This document shows positions 291 through 28,458 of a DNA stretch of 28,458 bases, one piece after another. The stretch's first letter is position 1. Each line of letters starts with the position of its first letter. The notes beneath the pieces are model-generated. The model had not been told where the DNA came from, searched no databases, and saw only the letters and a program-made list of their open reading frames with translations. The position numbers were made by a program, and so were the translations under genes. The DNA is from a virus. Location of the stretch: IMG/VR virus record IMGVR_UViG_3300013118_000173, positions 1 to 28,458 of that record. One strand, written 5' to 3'.

Positions 291-926
291 ATGCAGAGAA
301 AACTAACTTTACTTTGTATTCTTATTTTGGTTCTACCTATTGTTTATGCTGGACAGTTCGAGGTCATGAAGATTGAAAACCAGTATTGTAACTGTGACAT
401 GCAATGTTCTGCTGAAACAATTTGTATAACTTCATTAACGGATTCAACAATACTAACTTTAGATCCACACATTAAACTATGGGTTAGAGATGCAATAGAC
501 CATCGCAAAAGAGAAGGATTCTGCGGCAAGGTTCTAATGAAACTTCCCGATCATACTCGTACAGATCTAACTTCAAAATATTTAGGCACTGCTTGTCGTG
601 AACCACAAGTTAAACCAAAAGAAGTCTTAACGAATATCACAACTAACAATCTCATACAAAAAACAACTCTACCCAAAGCAGCTCAAAACCTAACCGAAAA
701 AAATGGTTCTAACGAACCTATTCTTTCACCAAATACTTTCAAAAAAAATTACCACATTTTGTTCTGGGCTGTTTTGGTTTATGCTTTATTGGTATCTGTA
801 GTTTTGGCGTATAAGGTTAAGGGGGTGGAAGTCTGTCCTTCTTGTAAGGGCAGGCTCATCACTTTTACCTATAGGGGTATTAATTCTAAACGCTGTGAAA
901 ATTGCGAATATAGAAGAAGAGTTTAA
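291..926 (+). CDS. Secreted-domain, single-span membrane protein with C-terminal zinc ribbon
   Basis: This is the only clear plus-strand gene (211 aa). I do not recognise a family. Visible parts: a signal peptide at residues 1-20 ending in VYAG; a presumed extracellular domain with six cysteines (C33, C35, C39, C45, C78, C102), suitable for disulfides; a Thr/Asn/Lys-rich linker (about 105-152) with three N-glycosylation sequons (N115, N133, N138); a membrane span at about 154-174; and a cytoplasmic tail with a CPSC...CENC zinc ribbon (C182, C185, C202, C205). The type I topology resembles a sensor or a surface-modifying protein placed in the host membrane, but that role is inference. It converges on the late operon, overlapping the last minus-strand peptide gene by four bases, and has its own promoter, so it is probably expressed at another time than the virion genes. 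Confidence 0.8.
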   Translation: MQRKLTLLCILILVLPIVYAGQFEVMKIENQYCNCDMQCSAETICITSLTDSTILTLDPHIKLWVRDAIDHRKREGFCGKVLMKLPDHTRTDLTSKYLGTACREPQVKPKEVLTNITTNNLIQKTTLPKAAQNLTEKNGSNEPILSPNTFKKNYHILFWAVLVYALLVSVVLAYKVKGVEVCPSCKGRLITFTYRGINSKRCENCEYRRRV

Positions 927-1019: not shown

Positions 1020-1097
1020 TCACTCACCCAACATTAGAACTATCGCAATGACTATTAAAAGGAGTCCAAAGAAGCCAACCCAGTATAAAATCGGCAT
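1020..1097 (-). CDS. Tiny single-span membrane peptide (25 aa)
   Basis: This 25-residue ORF begins MPILYWVGFFG and is almost entirely hydrophobic, ending LMLGE. One membrane span would cover residues 4-23. It lies 27 bases downstream of the stop of the holin-like gene and one base upstream of the next tiny membrane peptide, so the three would be read together. No clear ribosome binding site is seen in the sequence before its ATG. Function unknown; a lysis or envelope role is inferred only from position and hydrophobicity. Confidence 0.45.
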   Translation of the reverse strand: MPILYWVGFFGLLLIVIAIVLMLGE

Positions 1098-1124
1098 CGT
1101 TTTAGACCAAAGAAAAAATTAAAT

Positions 1125-1310
1125 TTATTCAACTATCACCAGTTTATGTTTACTTACTGCTCGCAAGACTAAATTAGCCACCGCTACTGCACTTAAAACA
1201 CCGCCAGCCTGCATGTGATCTGCAGCTGCTAAAGATATGCCGCCAACAAGTAATGCAACGTTAATCCAAAGCGTTTTACTCTTCAAAAAGTTCTTTTCCC
1301 TCTTTACCAT
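1125..1310 (-). CDS. Holin-like small membrane protein
   Basis: The protein has 61 residues: a charged N-terminus (MVKREKNFLKSK), a first hydrophobic segment at about 14-30, a short turn containing DHMQAGG, a second hydrophobic segment at about 36-52, and a basic tail. Small two-span proteins that start with a Lys-rich stretch followed by LWINVALL are common next to phage lysis or tail-end genes, where they are annotated as holins. A good GGAGG site lies nine bases before the ATG, just after the stop of the transglutaminase-like gene. I infer that it makes the membrane lesion that exposes the envelope to the lytic enzyme; no assay-level evidence is in the sequence. Confidence 0.55.
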   Translation of the reverse strand: MVKREKNFLKSKTLWINVALLVGGISLAAADHMQAGGVLSAVAVANLVLRAVSKHKLVIVE

Positions 1311-1323
1311 TTTATTGCCTCCA

Positions 1324-2895
1324 TTAAGCTTTTAATTTGAATTTCTTATAGCCACGACAGTCATTGCACGACCACCACTCCTTATGATACCTTAAATCAC
1401 TTTCTAAGGTGTTAAATCTTTGATCTAAAGCTCTTGAATCTTGATGATAACACCAATCAAGATGATACCATTTAAAGTCCTTATTTGCCCTGTATCGAAC
1501 GTACAAATGCCCAACAGTTTTCTTAGGATTGTTAGGATCAATAACAGGGCCGCCTTGTATTCTTATTTGATTAGCTGGAACTCCTGCCAAACGACACAGC
1601 ACCAATAACAAGACCGCACCACCATCACAATTATGCACTACACAATCACTTGATGGCAGATAGATTTCATGATCTTCGACTTCTATGTCATATACATCAG
1701 TTTCTATTGATTTTCTGATTCCAATTAGTTTCAAAGGTTTAGATAACGATCTAACTCTAATTCTCCATATTGGATTGTTTCCAAATTGAGTTCTAGTTGG
1801 TTGTACTAGAGAAGTATAACATTCTTTACCTTGCATTTTTAACAAGACACGAATTTGATTCTTTAGCTTTTCAGAAATTGTTGCAAACACGATCTCTTCA
1901 GTCTGCCAACGTTTTCTAATATGTGCATCCGCTTTTAAGCCCTCAATAAGTGCGTTGACATTCTCAGGATTTTGCGGTAATGTATCAACATGCTTTTCAA
2001 TGGCTCGCCGACCACATTTTCTAAAGTCCAGATATAATTCTTTACTCTTTACAACAATATAACGCTCATTCCAAGTATATTTGATATTATTACTTTCACA
2101 ATAGCGCTTTACCCATTCCTTTTGCTTCTCTTTGGGGTGGCCATCTTTACCAGATATAAATATGGATTTGTGTTCCTTATCAGTCCAACCATCAGCTACA
2201 AAAAGACCTTTCAAGTACCAGTAATCTAAGTCTAACGGTTCCTCTGAATCCAAGGAAATTTGGTTTATCTGCCTCAGTGCATCCCCTATTCTGAGCGCGT
2301 CTAAAGGCTTCTGAGAACCATCTGCCAATATGAATTTATGCTTTTCCGTTGCCAAAATTTGTGAACCATTATTTAATTCTAATTCATAAACTGCTTTTTT
2401 CCCCTTCGCCCATTTGTTAATTACGGTTTTTAATTTACCACCTTTGCCAATGATTTTTTCGCCTATAGCCACATCCTCTATATTAACTAACGCTCCATCG
2501 GAATTAAGTAATTTCGTATCCCAGGCTAGACAATCGTCAAAACCTTTATTTAAAGCTTCATAAGCTTCAGCCCAATATTCCCAAGTTTTCCAAGTTTCTA
2601 TGTCTGGCTTATATTTTAAAAGCTTCTTAACCAATCTCAATGCATAGACCACAGTTTTGTCAGGGTCTTTATGTTTGATCTTTTGGACTTCTTCTAACAA
2701 GTCAATGTGGGGATTATTTAATTGTTTCTTCAACCATTTACTAACATCTTTCAATTCGTTCTTACGCCAGTCTAATCTATACCAAACTGTAAAAGGCGAC
2801 CACTTAGAATCTAACCAATCATGTAATATTGTAGATATATTCTTACCAGTCATTGATTTATATTTCTCTGCCAACTTATCAGTCCATAATTTCAT
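1324..2895 (-). CDS. Transglutaminase-like cysteine enzyme interrupted by an intein
   Basis: The precursor has 523 residues. Removing the intein (C122-N422) leaves a 222-residue protein in which DD of residues 120-121 joins C423-D-G-G-A-V-L-L. This is the nucleophile motif of phage-associated transglutaminase-like proteins; H463 (in GHLYVRY) and D480 (in YHLDWCY) complete a Cys-His-Asp triad. The C-terminus has a CNDC pair (C510, C513). Members of this fold cleave or form amide bonds; pseudomurein endoisopeptidases of methanogen viruses use the same triad, so an envelope-degrading lysin is possible. A virion-associated protease is the alternative. The gene overlaps the preceding fibre-like gene by four bases (ATGA) and is followed by a holin-like gene and two tiny membrane peptides, which favours lysis. 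Activity must await splicing because the nucleophile is the intein +1 residue. Confidence 0.8.
   Translation of the reverse strand: MKLWTDKLAEKYKSMTGKNISTILHDWLDSKWSPFTVWYRLDWRKNELKDVSKWLKKQLNNPHIDLLEEVQKIKHKDPDKTVVYALRLVKKLLKYKPDIETWKTWEYWAEAYEALNKGFDDCLAWDTKLLNSDGALVNIEDVAIGEKIIGKGGKLKTVINKWAKGKKAVYELELNNGSQILATEKHKFILADGSQKPLDALRIGDALRQINQISLDSEEPLDLDYWYLKGLFVADGWTDKEHKSIFISGKDGHPKEKQKEWVKRYCESNNIKYTWNERYIVVKSKELYLDFRKCGRRAIEKHVDTLPQNPENVNALIEGLKADAHIRKRWQTEEIVFATISEKLKNQIRVLLKMQGKECYTSLVQPTRTQFGNNPIWRIRVRSLSKPLKLIGIRKSIETDVYDIEVEDHEIYLPSSDCVVHNCDGGAVLLLVLCRLAGVPANQIRIQGGPVIDPNNPKKTVGHLYVRYRANKDFKWYHLDWCYHQDSRALDQRFNTLESDLRYHKEWWSCNDCRGYKKFKLKA
1630..2532 (-). mobile_element. LAGLIDADG intein in the transglutaminase-like gene (301 aa)
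   Basis: The intein runs from C122 (block A, CLAWDTKLLNSDG) to N422 of the precursor, with the C-terminal junction VVHN followed by Cys. Block B is near TEKHKF (183-188). Block F is VYDIEVEDHEIYLPSSD (401-417). Between them is a homing endonuclease of the LAGLIDADG type: first motif LKGLFVADGW (228-237), second motif ALIEGLKADAH (315-325), both with the acidic residue retained, so the enzyme may be active. All splicing residues (Cys1, His-Asn, Cys+1) are present. The insertion point is immediately before the catalytic Cys of the host protein, the most conserved position available. Confidence 0.9.
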
Positions 2896-12531: not shown

Positions 12532-12549
12532 GATTTAAATAATTAATCT
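12532..12549 (-). promoter_or_regulatory. Late promoter-like element, copy 3 (neck/tail unit)
   Basis: On the minus strand this reads AGATTAATTATTTAAATC. It differs by one base from copy 2 (19124-19141). It overlaps the stop codon of the HNH gene and is about 90 bases before the stopper gene. The TTATTTAAAT core resembles an archaeal TATA box. Confidence 0.6.
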
Positions 12550-13036
12550 AAATATTTGGATTATGATGTGCTTTCATATGTTCTGAATGTGAATTAAACA
12601 ATTCTAAGTTATTTAACTCGTTATTTAACGGATTGTTATCTTTGTGATGAACGACTTCTTTAGGTTCTAAAAATCGTCCTATGTGTTTTTCCATTATGAC
12701 TCTATGCTCTCTCACATATCCTTGAGAGTTTGCATGAGGATGTCTTGGCATTAATAACCAAATGTAACCGTTATGTTCTAATTTGCCCGGAGATATTTGC
12801 CTTTTAGTTTTGGTTCGCCAAAGCCCATTGTTGTACATATTACGATAAGTTGTGTCTGGACGCTTTCTTCCAACATTAACTTTATTGCCCTTTTGAAAGC
12901 CCTTTAAGTGACTAGGTTTGCCTTGTTTCTTCTTATTAGCCCAGTAACATGTGTATGAGCAAAATTTTGCTTTGTTGATTCTTGCAGGTTCGACTCGAAA
13001 GCTCTTACTGCATTGAACACATTGTTTTGTTGCCAT
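12548..13036 (-). CDS. Free-standing HNH homing endonuclease with N-terminal zinc finger
   Basis: The 162-residue protein has a zinc finger (C6, C9, C26, C30 in CVQCSK ... FCSYTC) followed by a basic linker and an HNH nuclease of the type common in phages: GYIWLLMPRHPHANSQGYV, then REHRVIMEKHIGR, VVHHKDNNPLNNELNNLELF, with H130-H131, N142-N143 and H150 in SHSEHM. It is inserted between the adaptor and stopper genes, which are normally adjacent, and has its own leaderless-type promoter, so it is a selfish gene rather than a virion component. Its target is probably in the neighbouring neck genes of related viruses lacking it; that is inference. I see no intron boundary around it. Confidence 0.85.
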   Translation of the reverse strand: MATKQCVQCSKSFRVEPARINKAKFCSYTCYWANKKKQGKPSHLKGFQKGNKVNVGRKRPDTTYRNMYNNGLWRTKTKRQISPGKLEHNGYIWLLMPRHPHANSQGYVREHRVIMEKHIGRFLEPKEVVHHKDNNPLNNELNNLELFNSHSEHMKAHHNPNI

Positions 13037-16854: not shown

Positions 16855-17466
16855 TTAACTACCTCCCTCTACATAAACTACTCTTGATCTGCAATTAACA
16901 TGAAACGGATTAATATCCCACTCCTGACCATCCAATTCAAACTTAGCATCAGTAGGAATAGCTTTATCTGCGGATCCATACTTTTGATCTAAACCTTGAC
17001 ATATACTTGAAGTTCTCTTATCCAAATGAGCATCAACATACTTAACCAATTGTAAACCAGTTTGTCTAGCCGCATCTCGGTGTGCCATACCCTCAGCACG
17101 ATTGGATTCAGTTCTTGCAATCATTTTAGCCCTAGTTTGTGCCATCTCTGATACGCCTTGAATCCGTTCTGCAATTGCGGCGACGCTTTCATTATTCATA
17201 ACTCCTTGCGTGACTTCTTTTCGAATTTTTTCTTGCATCTCTTCGTTCATACCTTTTATATTCTCAGCAACATAATCATTAAGCAATTCAACACGATTAT
17301 CCTTTCTTGTAAAATTCATGTTAAATTTTACTTCCATGTCTTGTAATCCTTTATCATAAAACTTCATTAATGATCTGGCAACAATATCTTTACCAACATC
17401 AATAGCAAATAATGAAGATAAACTTTTCACTATTGAACCAATTATATTCTTAAGTTCACTTGACAT
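16855..17466 (-). CDS. MuF/SPP1 gp7-like minor head protein
   Basis: From ATG 17466 the protein has 203 residues; an upstream ATG at 17487 would add seven residues that overlap the portal gene. The C-terminal half carries the MuF pattern: MIARTESNRAEGMAHRDAARQTG, then VDAHLDKRTSSICQGLDQKYGS, and the closing NPFHVNCRSRVVYV. The N-terminal half is helical. MuF proteins sit in the capsid by the portal and are sometimes ejected with DNA. It follows the portal gene with an 11-base overlap and is followed by the protease gene at no distance, the classic order portal, MuF, protease, capsid. Confidence 0.8.
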   Translation of the reverse strand: MSSELKNIIGSIVKSLSSLFAIDVGKDIVARSLMKFYDKGLQDMEVKFNMNFTRKDNRVELLNDYVAENIKGMNEEMQEKIRKEVTQGVMNNESVAAIAERIQGVSEMAQTRAKMIARTESNRAEGMAHRDAARQTGLQLVKYVDAHLDKRTSSICQGLDQKYGSADKAIPTDAKFELDGQEWDINPFHVNCRSRVVYVEGGS

Positions 17467-19072
17467 TGTCCAACTTACCCTCATCATATAACTTTAAAGC
17501 ATCAACGACCTTAGTAGCATTACTCTTAATTTGATTAACTAATTCAGTCTCTAATTCTGTTGTTTCGAACTCATCAGCCGGATTGGCTTTTATCCCAACG
17601 TCATTTTTGTCTTTGTTATCTTTATCTTTCTGTCCTTCTTTATCTTTGAAATTCTCTCCTTTATCCTGGTTGCCAAATAGGGCTTCATCTTCTTTCTGTT
17701 TCTCCTCTTTACTTTTCTTTAATTTAGCAAGATCAATTCCTTCTTCTTCAGCAATCATTTCCGGAGTTTTAATTCCCAGTCTTAATTGTGCTTCATACAA
17801 TGAATGCTTTTGAATATCTTCATCTAAGTCATAGTCCTCAAACTTAAACTTTAAATCATTCGTTCCAAACTCAGGGATAATTTCCATGTTAATTCTTTCT
17901 TCCATAAGTCTTAACAAAGGCCTAACTGCCTTTCGTGCGAAACGTTTAGCCACAGTTTGTGAGACAGCTTTATTACTATCTTGAGTGAAACCCATGTCTT
18001 CGGGACTAATACCGAAGCACATCCAAACAACCTTAGTAAACCATTCTTGTTGTTCAATGATTTGTAGTTCTTTAGCTGGTAATTGGAACGGCGTAAATTT
18101 AGCTTCAACATTTACAACAGGCATCTTAAAGCCAACCTTTCTGAAGAATCCAGTTACAGAATCTTTGAAACGATTACTATTTTCTAATCTTTCTTTAACT
18201 GATTTTACTTGTGCTGATTGTGCACCTATTAGTTGTAAAACTCCTTCTGGAATATTACTATTCATGTAAAAATCCAAATTATATTGTGAACCGTAAACTA
18301 ATGTTAAAATAATATCTGCTAAAACCTGAACAGGACTTATACCATACATTGAATCCGTTCTTGGGTTTTTCATGAAATAAACAATCTCACGTTTACCAAA
18401 AGGAATAGGCATAGCTGCACTAGTCCAACTGTATTGGAAATATGCTGCTTGATTTCTGTAATGCAAATCATAATGCTGGACTTGTTGAGTTTCTGTCATG
18501 CCTGAAATATCAAAGTGTGAAGCAGGTAAAATAATATCTTCTCTATCACCCATGTAACCATAAATATCTGGATTTTTTAAGAAAGCACCACCATCTCTAG
18601 CAAACAATTGCACCATTTTCCCTGCACGATTAAACACCTTAACAAAACATCCTGCGTCTACCTCGCAAATATCTCTAATACACGCCTTAGTTAAATCCCC
18701 AAAACTTTCTTTATTACCGTTAGGATTATTAAGAAAATCACATATTTGGTCACGCTTAGCCATTAATTCTGGATTGTCTTCTATGCGAACTGAGCCGTCT
18801 TTAGGTACGATCTTCCACGGATTACCTGCGGCCTCTTCTTGAAGCAAATTAATAACGCCAAAGATATAAGGATATTTTCCAAATACTTTCAATAACGGTA
18901 TGTTTTCCGGTCTAGGATAACCATAGGGGGGTTTGTATAAGAATTTTGGAATATACGCCTTAAATATGCCGCCAGCAATATTGTCACGTTCAATTACATC
19001 ATTAGATTGTTGACTAGCTTTTACTTCAGGCTCAGCTTTGATCGTTGGTTTATCTTTTCTAAATAGTCCCAT
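17456..19072 (-). CDS. Portal protein
   Basis: The 538-residue protein has the HK97/SPP1-type portal pattern: GKYPYIFGVINLLQEEAAGN near residue 65, a wing with DAGCFVKVFNRAGKMVQL, REIVYFMKNPRTDSMYGISP then VQVLADIILTLVYGSQYN, GFKMPVVNVEAKFTPFQLPA, and the stem helix with KVVWMCFGISPEDMGFTQDS and KAVSQTVAKRFARKAVRPLL. The C-terminal 110 residues are charged and Lys/Glu/Asp-rich. It is first in its transcription unit, about 50 bases after late element copy 2. GGTAAC before the ATG is a weak ribosome binding site. Twelve copies form the DNA gate and the motor dock. Confidence 0.85.
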   Translation of the reverse strand: MGLFRKDKPTIKAEPEVKASQQSNDVIERDNIAGGIFKAYIPKFLYKPPYGYPRPENIPLLKVFGKYPYIFGVINLLQEEAAGNPWKIVPKDGSVRIEDNPELMAKRDQICDFLNNPNGNKESFGDLTKACIRDICEVDAGCFVKVFNRAGKMVQLFARDGGAFLKNPDIYGYMGDREDIILPASHFDISGMTETQQVQHYDLHYRNQAAYFQYSWTSAAMPIPFGKREIVYFMKNPRTDSMYGISPVQVLADIILTLVYGSQYNLDFYMNSNIPEGVLQLIGAQSAQVKSVKERLENSNRFKDSVTGFFRKVGFKMPVVNVEAKFTPFQLPAKELQIIEQQEWFTKVVWMCFGISPEDMGFTQDSNKAVSQTVAKRFARKAVRPLLRLMEERINMEIIPEFGTNDLKFKFEDYDLDEDIQKHSLYEAQLRLGIKTPEMIAEEEGIDLAKLKKSKEEKQKEDEALFGNQDKGENFKDKEGQKDKDNKDKNDVGIKANPADEFETTELETELVNQIKSNATKVVDALKLYDEGKLDNVK

Positions 19073-26333: not shown

Positions 26334-28458
26334 TACCACATCACCACGACTTCTTTATTTGCAGACCAAACAAAATAAACTAGGCAATCTGCAAAATCTG
26401 GGCTCTTATCTTCAGGGTCAACTATTTTAATCTTTTCGCTTAAAGTCTTGTCCCACTTCATTTTCATTAACTCAGATCTTAAAGTGATGTTGTTAGGTAT
26501 GTCAACCCTTTTCTCAACCATCAAATTTTGTAACCTAAAGTATTGTTCTGCTTTTTTATTCATAAAGCGTTTCCTGCTAGAAGTTGGTAACTTGGCTTGC
26601 ACAGTAGTCGCTTCTTCGGGAGCTTCTCCAAAGTGACACGCGTTTACTTGGATGATGCCATCAGGATATATCTCATTCAAACGACTCACTATGCCTGCAC
26701 CTATACCTATACAATCAACATTAATCTTAGCCACATCTTCCTTTTCATCAACTAACCTAACAATGCGGTTTACTATTTGCATATTGTCACTCTTAGGTTC
26801 ATGATAAACATATTCAACTTTAAACAAGCCATCCGATTCATGACCATACATAATAACAGTAAAATCCAAACCTTTATCGCTAGGATCACAGGCAATTATG
26901 CCATCTCCTCTAGAAAGAAAGTTATTTTCTATTGCATTATTGATGTCTTTTAACCGAAATAAACTATCTTCAGCTTCAGGTGGAAAAACACTTTCATATA
27001 AAACTGTAAACTCAATAGGCGTTAATTCATCTCTCATCTCGTCTATAAAGGTCTCTGTCACTCTACCTTCTTCAATAGCAGTTTTATAACCAACATGAAT
27101 CACTAAAAATCTGCCAGAAACATAATGATCATAATATTTATTATCCATATCCCATGGGTTAGCTAACTCTATCAAAACACTATTCTCAGGGTCATCTCCA
27201 AGCATTCTAACTATTTTAGCATAAGCTTCTCTACTTATTTTAGCGCTCTCATCACAATTATGTGTTAGAAAACCATTTACAAAATAATTATTATTGTTTG
27301 CTATCTCTAAATTATAGACATATTTGTCTTTTGTGTTGACACTTTTAATTGATTTGATAGTAGCGATTTCCACATTTCTCTTTTGTAATTTGTTCTTGTG
27401 TGACAGCTCACACAAAGAGTTATTAGATTGTTTTCTTGAGAATTGTTTTTGTCGTAATCTATATGATGAACACAAAGCTTTCCAGTTTTCCCACAAAGAA
27501 AACACACATTTCCATCTCTTTTTTTGATTTTTCTCTTTAGTTTTATATTGAACTCTGGAGGCCAAGGAAGATTTCCTATCCCTCCCCTCCATACAGGATT
27601 GCCCTCCATTAGCATTTTCTCTGAATGACCTCTGTTCGCACACTTTCTTGAACAATATTGTCTCGTGTCTTTCATTGCAGGAATTACCTTTAATTGCTTT
27701 CCACAATATACGCATGAAATCAAAAAACGTTTTTTTTCTTGCTTTTGGATATTCTGCGAACGACAAATTACTGAACAGAACACTCTTTTTTTCTTTGTGT
27801 TTGGATCTACATAAAAAGAACTTCCACATTCTTTGCACAATATTTCTTTCTTGCCACCTCCCCACATAGGATTTTTTTCTCCTTTCTGCCAGTCTCCTCT
27901 GCATTTGTGACTGCAAAAATTTAAGTTCTGATTCTTCTGCCTTTTTATATGGCTCGGTCTCTTGTAAAATGGGGTTCTGCAAATATTGCACATAACTATT
28001 GGCATCTTTCTTAGAAGTCGTTACGCATTTATATATCTTATCGTTCTCCCTTAGTTTTTTAGCGGCAATATAACCTCTTTTTTCCTCAAATACAGGATGA
28101 TTTTCAGTTACTCTAAAACTGCCCAAATTAGTTTCTATTTCTAAAATCTTATCTTTTCTAGCATTCTTAAAATATCTCTTAATAGGTTGATATTCTAATT
28201 TTTGAGTGTCTGTATTATAAGATAAAACTTTTAATTTTAATTTTTTATCAACTATGTTTTTTATATCCTTTTCCCCTTTATTTGTCATAAATCTTTGACC
28301 TTTAGGTACACATATGACAAGATCAGCACCAAATCCCATTAATCTAGTGGCTTCACCATGAGCAGAAATAGTTAATAACTGACAACCATTCTTAAATGTC
28401 CAACGCCTTCTGCTTGTTTCTCGTTTTAATCTTTCAATAGAATTGTCCCGATCTATAT
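26333..28458 (-). CDS. terL: Terminase large subunit, 5' part missing, interrupted by an intein
   Basis: The frame is open to the window edge, so the ATPase N-terminus with Walker A lies outside. Numbering here is from the internal Met at 28339. Upstream of it is QLLTISAHGEATRL. Walker B reads GFGADLVI, intein, C362-D363-E364-S. The motor part continues ELANPWDMDNKYYDHYVSGR (coupling motif). The RNase H-like nuclease domain has D485 (IIACDPSDKG), D542 (INVDCIGIGAG) and D648/D651 (SPDFADCLVYFVW). Host-protein sequence is thus intact after splicing. TerL cuts the concatemer and pumps DNA into the head. Without splicing the Walker B aspartate is moved away from the phosphate site, so packaging depends on the intein. 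A zinc-ribbon gene follows at overlapping start/stop. Confidence 0.93.
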   Translation of the reverse strand, partial: IDRDNSIERLKRETSRRRWTFKNGCQLLTISAHGEATRLMGFGADLVICVPKGQRFMTNKGEKDIKNIVDKKLKLKVLSYNTDTQKLEYQPIKRYFKNARKDKILEIETNLGSFRVTENHPVFEEKRGYIAAKKLRENDKIYKCVTTSKKDANSYVQYLQNPILQETEPYKKAEESELKFLQSQMQRRLAERRKKSYVGRWQERNIVQRMWKFFLCRSKHKEKKSVLFSNLSFAEYPKARKKTFFDFMRILWKAIKGNSCNERHETILFKKVCEQRSFRENANGGQSCMEGRDRKSSLASRVQYKTKEKNQKKRWKCVFSLWENWKALCSSYRLRQKQFSRKQSNNSLCELSHKNKLQKRNVEIATIKSIKSVNTKDKYVYNLEIANNNNYFVNGFLTHNCDESAKISREAYAKIVRMLGDDPENSVLIELANPWDMDNKYYDHYVSGRFLVIHVGYKTAIEEGRVTETFIDEMRDELTPIEFTVLYESVFPPEAEDSLFRLKDINNAIENNFLSRGDGIIACDPSDKGLDFTVIMYGHESDGLFKVEYVYHEPKSDNMQIVNRIVRLVDEKEDVAKINVDCIGIGAGIVSRLNEIYPDGIIQVNACHFGEAPEEATTVQAKLPTSSRKRFMNKKAEQYFRLQNLMVEKRVDIPNNITLRSELMKMKWDKTLSEKIKIVDPEDKSPDFADCLVYFVWSANKEVVVMW
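27257..28312 (-). mobile_element. Intein at the Walker B motif of TerL (352 aa) with out-of-frame endonuclease gene
   Basis: The intein runs from C10 (CVPKGQRFMTNKGEKDIKNI, block A) to N361, before C362. Block B is SFRVTENHPVFEEKRGYIAA (with H81). The C-terminal blocks are DKYVYNLEIANNNNYFVNGF and LTHN followed by Cys. Splicing residues Cys1, His-Asn and Cys+1 are intact. Between about residues 112 and 322 the intein frame reads a basic, Ser/Lys/Arg-rich sequence with no recognised fold, because this DNA codes the HNH endonuclease in another frame (27307-28005). So it is a mini-intein of about 140 functional residues with a spacer of about 210. Confidence 0.9.
27307..28005 (-). CDS. HNH homing endonuclease in a +1 frame inside the TerL intein
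   Basis: The 232-residue protein has three zinc-finger-like modules (C6-C9 with C31-C35; C57-C60 with C77-C81; C98-C101 with C118-C122), then WPPEFNIKLKRKIKKRDGNV, and the HNH ribbon: CFLCGKTGKLCVHHIDYDKN, NNLITLCVSCHTRTN, with H180-H181, N193-N194, H202 and zinc Cys at 168, 171, 198, 201. It is complete and looks active. An in-frame TAA at 28021-28023, six codons before ATG 28005, separates it from anything upstream, so it needs its own initiation; no strong ribosome binding site is visible (AAGAAAG precedes the ATG). Its last 20 codons overlap the start of the intein C-terminal splicing segment in the other frame. Confidence 0.85.
   Translation of the reverse strand: MPIVMCNICRTPFYKRPSHIKRQKNQNLNFCSHKCRGDWQKGEKNPMWGGGKKEILCKECGSSFYVDPNTKKKRVFCSVICRSQNIQKQEKKRFLISCVYCGKQLKVIPAMKDTRQYCSRKCANRGHSEKMLMEGNPVWRGGIGNLPWPPEFNIKLKRKIKKRDGNVCFLCGKTGKLCVHHIDYDKNNSQENNLITLCVSCHTRTNYKREMWKSLLSNQLKVSTQKTNMSII

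Follow-up and report, generated by a model that had tools for sequence, protein, structure and literature searches.

The window, the whole stretch of DNA analyzed here, is a 28,458-base IMG/VR virus record. Its minus strand carries, at 1324..2895, a gene for a precursor of 523 amino acids, predicted to be a transglutaminase/LapG-like protease that contains an intein. The N-extein (2533..2895, residues 1-121) ends in G-F-D-D. The intein itself (1630..2532, 301 amino acids) runs from C122, whose codon starts at 2532, to N422, whose codon ends at 1630. The C-extein (1324..1629, residues 423-523) begins C-D-G-G and holds the catalytic residues. Here, a single codon (C423, 1627..1629) encodes both the +1 residue of the intein and the predicted catalytic nucleophile. 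These coordinates and residues bear out the preliminary description of this DNA, which had placed the intein exactly before C423.

The gene is the last of a tail operon. Because terminase, portal, head, capsid, and tail genes adjoin it (among them a Mu-F-like head protein and an SU10-type capsid protein), the window virus is a tailed virus. The same virus, at 100% DNA identity, recurs in two further metagenome records, both of which carry the intact intein, and the reading frame of the precursor is unbroken in all three samples.

The intein signal is far beyond chance. The precursor matches the Pfam families Intein_splicing (43.4 bits, cut-off 35.8), Hom_end_hint (33.2 bits, cut-off 32.1), and LAGLIDADG_3 (24.0 bits, cut-off 22.5). 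Every residue that defines a class 1 intein is found: Cys1, the TxxH of block B, the Asp of block F, the penultimate His, the terminal Asn, and the +1 Cys. In precursor numbering, these are C122, T-E-K-H, D282, H421, N422, and C423; as listed in intein numbering, they are C1, T62-x-x-H65, D282, H300, and N301. The intein presumably splices autocatalytically.

Two acidic motifs of the LAGLIDADG homing type are present as well, one containing VADGW (LKGLFVADGW, 2185..2214, minus strand) and the other LKADAH (LIEGLKADAH, 1921..1950, minus strand). The Asp in each is invariant in the five inteins that were aligned. An intein family signature, ISGKDGHPKEKQKEW, lies in the endonuclease domain at 2113..2157 (minus strand), and the pattern ISG[KQ]DG[HC]PKE is invariant in the same five inteins. 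The endonuclease is probably active. In a structural model of the precursor, the best fold match of the intein part is the endonuclease-bearing TliVMA intein (7qsu, E 2.3e-13); that intein differs in its host protein, which is VMA (V-ATPase) and not a protease.

Removal of the intein makes the nature of the exteins clearer. With residues 122-422 deleted, a protein of 222 amino acids is obtained, and its match to Transglut_core, which is split in the precursor at 15.1 bits, rises by 9.6 to 24.7 bits, above the cut-off of 23. The spliced protein belongs, by this score, to the transglutaminase-like superfamily (PF01841), and the Cys-His-Asp set expected of that superfamily is present as C423, H463 (1507..1509, minus strand), and D480 (1456..1458, minus strand).

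In seven viral homologues without the intein, C423 and H463 do not vary. Relatives of the portal gave 36 loci, in which four related viruses have an intein-less homologue, three of the four directly after tail-fibre-like genes. Three more homologues of this kind are L058, L059, and gp34 of Salisaeta icosahedral phage 1. The last, at 3884-4798 of L085, is transglutaminase-like (Transglut_core 29.6 bits) and has the same D-C motif. The intein-less homologues keep the D-C pair at the exact position of the junction. An alignment of 12 exteins has only four invariant columns (D121, C423, G438, and H463); the position of D480, the predicted third catalytic residue, holds Asp or Glu in most of them, Glu being found in a few homologues.

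A profile made from five sequences of the extein family finds the LapG structures 4u65 (1.7e-14) and 4fgo (1.7e-7), and in both it pairs the D-C of the family with the D-C of LapG. The intein-less homologue L044 was modeled with a mean pLDDT of 66 (about 90 in the core). In a fold comparison, this model comes closest to LapG (Z 12.8, 3.3 A over 146 residues), ahead of the pseudomurein endopeptidases PeiP and PeiW (Z 9.3 and 8.9), for which no Pfam family match was found. The main, catalytic helix of the L044 model (residues 130-143) begins exactly at the catalytic Cys.

The extein family is a distant relative of LapG, not LapG itself. The periplasmic cysteine protease LapG (4fgo, 4fgq, 4u65; Peptidase_C93/BTLCP) is like the window enzyme in profile, in fold, and in its catalytic D-C. 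It differs in having no intein, whereas the window enzyme is viral and scores far under the cut-off of the LapG equivalog NF045674 of NCBIfam (38.7 bits, against 320). For Peptidase_C93 (PF06035), the best homologue reaches 23.8 bits against a cut-off of 27, and the window protein gives no match at E 0.1. No convincing family was found for the spliced protein in PHROGs, no match for the extein by tblastn against phage records, and no relatives in scans of genome contigs, one with the extein and one with the intein profile. The spliced product would be expected to have protease activity.

The preliminary description had predicted C423 to be the nucleophile. That prediction now has behind it the gain in Transglut_core on excision, the invariance of the residue in homologues, and the alignment with the D-C of LapG. 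Two outcomes had been set beforehand as counting against it, the lack of a Cys-His-Asp set and an intein-less homologue with another Cys as nucleophile. Neither occurred; the set is present, and the number of such homologues is zero.

The intein has relatives. Full-length members of its family are found in five other virus contigs (L062, L067, L075, L076, and L090). All six inteins sit between the D and the C of a transglutaminase-like D-C-(D/E) motif, directly before the catalytic Cys. In the joined exteins, Transglut_core spans the junction with 20.2 bits in L062, 27.8 in L067, 17.6 in L075, 12.4 in L076, and 18.4 in L090; L067 alone passes the curated cut-off, and the transglutaminase-like assignment of the four that lie under it rests also on the D-C pair and the downstream His/Asp. 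Members of the family match one another over their full length, with E values of 1e-35 or lower, whereas inteins inserted elsewhere (in terminase, ribonucleotide reductase, DNA polymerase, methylase, and RtcB) match mostly in the splicing part, at E values of at least 3e-12. Matches in Bacteroides and Thermus phages proved to be ribonucleotide reductase inteins, and that in L077 an RtcB intein; these were left out of the count.

Six distant lineages, AT-rich and GC-rich alike, carry one intein family at the codon of the nucleophile. What is new here is the insertion site, which lies outside the nucleic-acid enzymes that usually host inteins and has an intein family of its own. Among open-access papers, none was found to report that a transglutaminase-like or LapG-like protein carries an intein.

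A +1 residue that doubles as a catalytic residue is, of course, not new, because ribonucleotide reductase inteins already show it. In those of the Bacteroides phages DAC16/SJC03, the Thermus phage G20c, and a Nodularia phage, the +1 Cys lies within the motif N-P-C-(A/G)-E-I, and the Cys of that motif is the radical-bearing catalytic residue. The likeness is that one thiol is both +1 and catalytic. The difference is that the host is another enzyme and that the similarity of the inteins is partial, mainly in the splicing domain.

More generally, there is ample documentation of inteins at active centers, in enzymes of phages and cells alike (PMC5050341, PMC5874633, PMC7765530). Those of mycobacteriophages (Kelley et al., 2016, PMC5050341) resemble the window intein in their insertion in functional motifs, their mobility through homing endonucleases, and their spread among phages. 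Their hosts, however, are mainly nucleic-acid enzymes, and transglutaminase is not mentioned there. For native inteins, the mean distance from insertion to active site is 8.3 A, and other C/S/T sites average 21.1 A (PLoS One 2012, PMC3359363). That paper already argues that the block of activity selects for splicing, and discusses closeness as a reason for retention. In the window, this distance falls to zero, with the predicted nucleophile itself as the +1 residue.

The pathway proposed for maturation is that of a class 1 intein. The precursor would be translated as a single chain. C122 would perform an N-S shift, C423 would accept the N-extein by trans-thioesterification, and N422 would then cyclize. 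An S-N shift would form the bond between D121 and C423, and in the resulting 222 amino acid protein C423 would act as nucleophile with H463 and D480.

Before this, the precursor would be catalytically dead, the nucleophile and the helix that it caps being still joined to the intein. There are sound grounds to consider it probably inactive until the intein is removed, because C423, still bonded to N422, cannot start the catalytic helix, which in the L044 model begins exactly at the catalytic Cys. The model of the precursor (pTM 0.48) resolves the intein and leaves the exteins mostly at a pLDDT below 60, too weak to judge disruption of the active site. Splicing would most likely be constitutive maturation.

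Why, then, does an intein sit at this codon? Very probably, a mobile class 1 LAGLIDADG intein has come to lie between D121 and C423 of a LapG-type, transglutaminase-like cysteine protease of a tailed virus, where it is removed by constitutive maturation. The anatomy of the gene, the conserved residues, the specificity for one site across six virus lineages, and the patchy distribution are direct observations; homing to an invariant active-site codon by itself explains both the pattern of occurrence and the conserved residues of the endonuclease. The inteins of the window and L062 are 40% identical over 304 amino acids, and their exteins match at E 0.01-0.03 only. The best matches of the window extein (L044, L045, and L046, at 90, 68, and 57 bits) are all without an intein, and the nearest extein to that of L067 is the intein-less Salisaeta gp34. 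Homing is favored because similar inteins are found in exteins that can barely be aligned, while close extein relatives have no intein.

In the extein tree, which is weakly supported (two starred branches), the intein label needs four gains or losses (bootstrap range 3-4). The pattern found is that of a LAGLIDADG homing intein: the same codon in six lineages, patchy presence, and relatives without the intein. A common DNA target, G..GA(C/T)|TG(C/T)GA, corresponds to the codons of the best-conserved residues. The codon would be occupied because it lies in D-C-(D/E), the most invariant stretch of the gene, where a target for the endonuclease is always present. The intein would be retained there because only an exact deletion gives back a working enzyme. 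Vertical descent with losses could account for part of this history, since inteins and exteins split alike, with window and L062 on one side and L067-L090 on the other. No close relative was found to carry another copy at this site, which would have been a sign of recent homing.

The same placement can, of course, be read as regulation. The preliminary description had proposed that, if the enzyme lyses the cell, intein release would act as a switch, which redox or temperature might time. In a fuller form, the virus would gain from a protease that is kept silent, with release timed by redox, temperature, or assembly. C423 is needed for both reactions, which makes activity of the precursor unlikely; the site is common to six viral lineages; and conditional splicing, documented for other inteins, provides a precedent (PMC5790916, PMC6195587). 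However, homologues closely related to the window protein have no intein, and homing accounts for the site without any switch. Further, the motif residues of the endonuclease are invariant in the five aligned inteins, as a selfish element needs. Beyond the placement, no feature was found to support the switch. At the position of C418, the only extra Cys beside the splice site, relatives have Ile, Trp, or Val, and the N-extein contains no Cys; the conserved regulatory Cys partner of a redox-type conditional-splicing intein was not found. A redox trap through C418 was dropped because that residue is not conserved. A generic disulfide between C1 and C+1 is conceivable. A zymogen switch of this kind is improbable. 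It likewise seems quite unlikely that a selfish element has become such a switch, as a dedicated family on the codon of the catalytic Cys whose delayed splicing, in some viruses, silences the protease until assembly or lysis.

Alternatively, the intein might splice poorly or only cleave, so that the enzyme would be lost or made in two parts. An Asp at position -1 may favor N-terminal cleavage, and D121 precedes C122; further, the L076 intein ends in Gln instead of Asn. Against this, the window intein has all of the known splicing residues, the C-extein retains its C, H, and D, and the frame is intact in the three samples, which leaves impaired splicing highly improbable. Related viruses that carry versions of the enzyme with and without the intein constitute a clean natural test of whether active-site inteins are selfish only or also regulatory. 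A protease tool that activates itself could also be built on this use of one thiol for both splicing and catalysis.

The spliced enzyme would presumably act on an envelope or in the virion. Lysis, the role that the preliminary description had entertained, did not find confirmation. Under that role, which is compatible with homing, the protease would be the endolysin-like lysis enzyme of the virus, and the small membrane ORFs after its gene would be holins. Directly after the protease gene, 14 bases past its end, starts an ORF for 61 amino acids that resemble a small membrane protein (1125..1310, minus strand; a possible holin with no family match), and two more small hydrophobic ORFs lie behind it. 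The fold is common to PeiP and PeiW, which are lysis enzymes of archaeal viruses. But LapG scores above both of these, a search of holin families gave no match to any of the two or three small membrane ORFs, and the homologues that were inspected do not have the same membrane ORFs behind them. On balance, a lysis enzyme is rather unlikely. A role in the virion or tail is equally or more likely, because homologues lie beside or inside tail proteins (a tail-like protein of L058 contains the domain) and the annotation of Salisaeta gp34 reads "structural protein."

The window contains a second intein, in the large subunit of the terminase (27257-28312, minus strand, 352 amino acids; Intein_splicing 60.5 bits), with the junction C..HN|CDES at a Walker B-like motif. 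Inside it, in a different frame, lies an ORF for an HNH endonuclease of 232 amino acids (27307-28005, minus strand; phrog_1271, 8.7e-27). The intein frame has no stop across this ORF. Both frames appear to be kept, because synonymous shuffles of the HNH ORF, which place a mean of 17 to 25 stops in the intein frame, leave that frame open in 0/3000 and 0/20000 cases. Phage methylases provide known cases of out-of-frame HNH insertion; the closest precedent, the ShiLan element (PMC11855218), has no intein splicing domain. In two sister viruses, genes are interrupted within an intein, so that each consists of two overlapping ORFs, at 224-1066 and 1045-1773 (plus strand) of L050 and at 2732-2256 and 2262-1303 (minus strand) of L051. 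The genes affected are for a Mu-F-like head protein and a neck/tail-completion-like protein, and the second ORF comprises an HNH domain, a C-intein, and a C-extein. These are fractured genes with split inteins, and a relation to the window's own hidden-HNH intein is possible.

Elsewhere in the window, a free-standing HNH endonuclease (12548-13036, minus strand; HNH_3, 39.9 bits) lies inside the structural gene cluster. The Mu-F-like head protein (16855-17487, minus strand) has a weak match to the ADP-ribosyltransferase family Tox-ART-HYE1 (22.9 bits, under the cut-off of 25). A divergent gene at 291-926 (plus strand), preceded by a TATA-like sequence, encodes a product that resembles a signal peptide, one membrane segment, and a C-terminal zinc ribbon, with a weak match to Zn_ribbon_TFIIB. 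When G001 (38,292 bases) is compared with the window, the order of the terminase and protease genes and the spacing between them fit only a circular or circularly permuted genome, for which the coordinates of the two together give about 38.2 kb.
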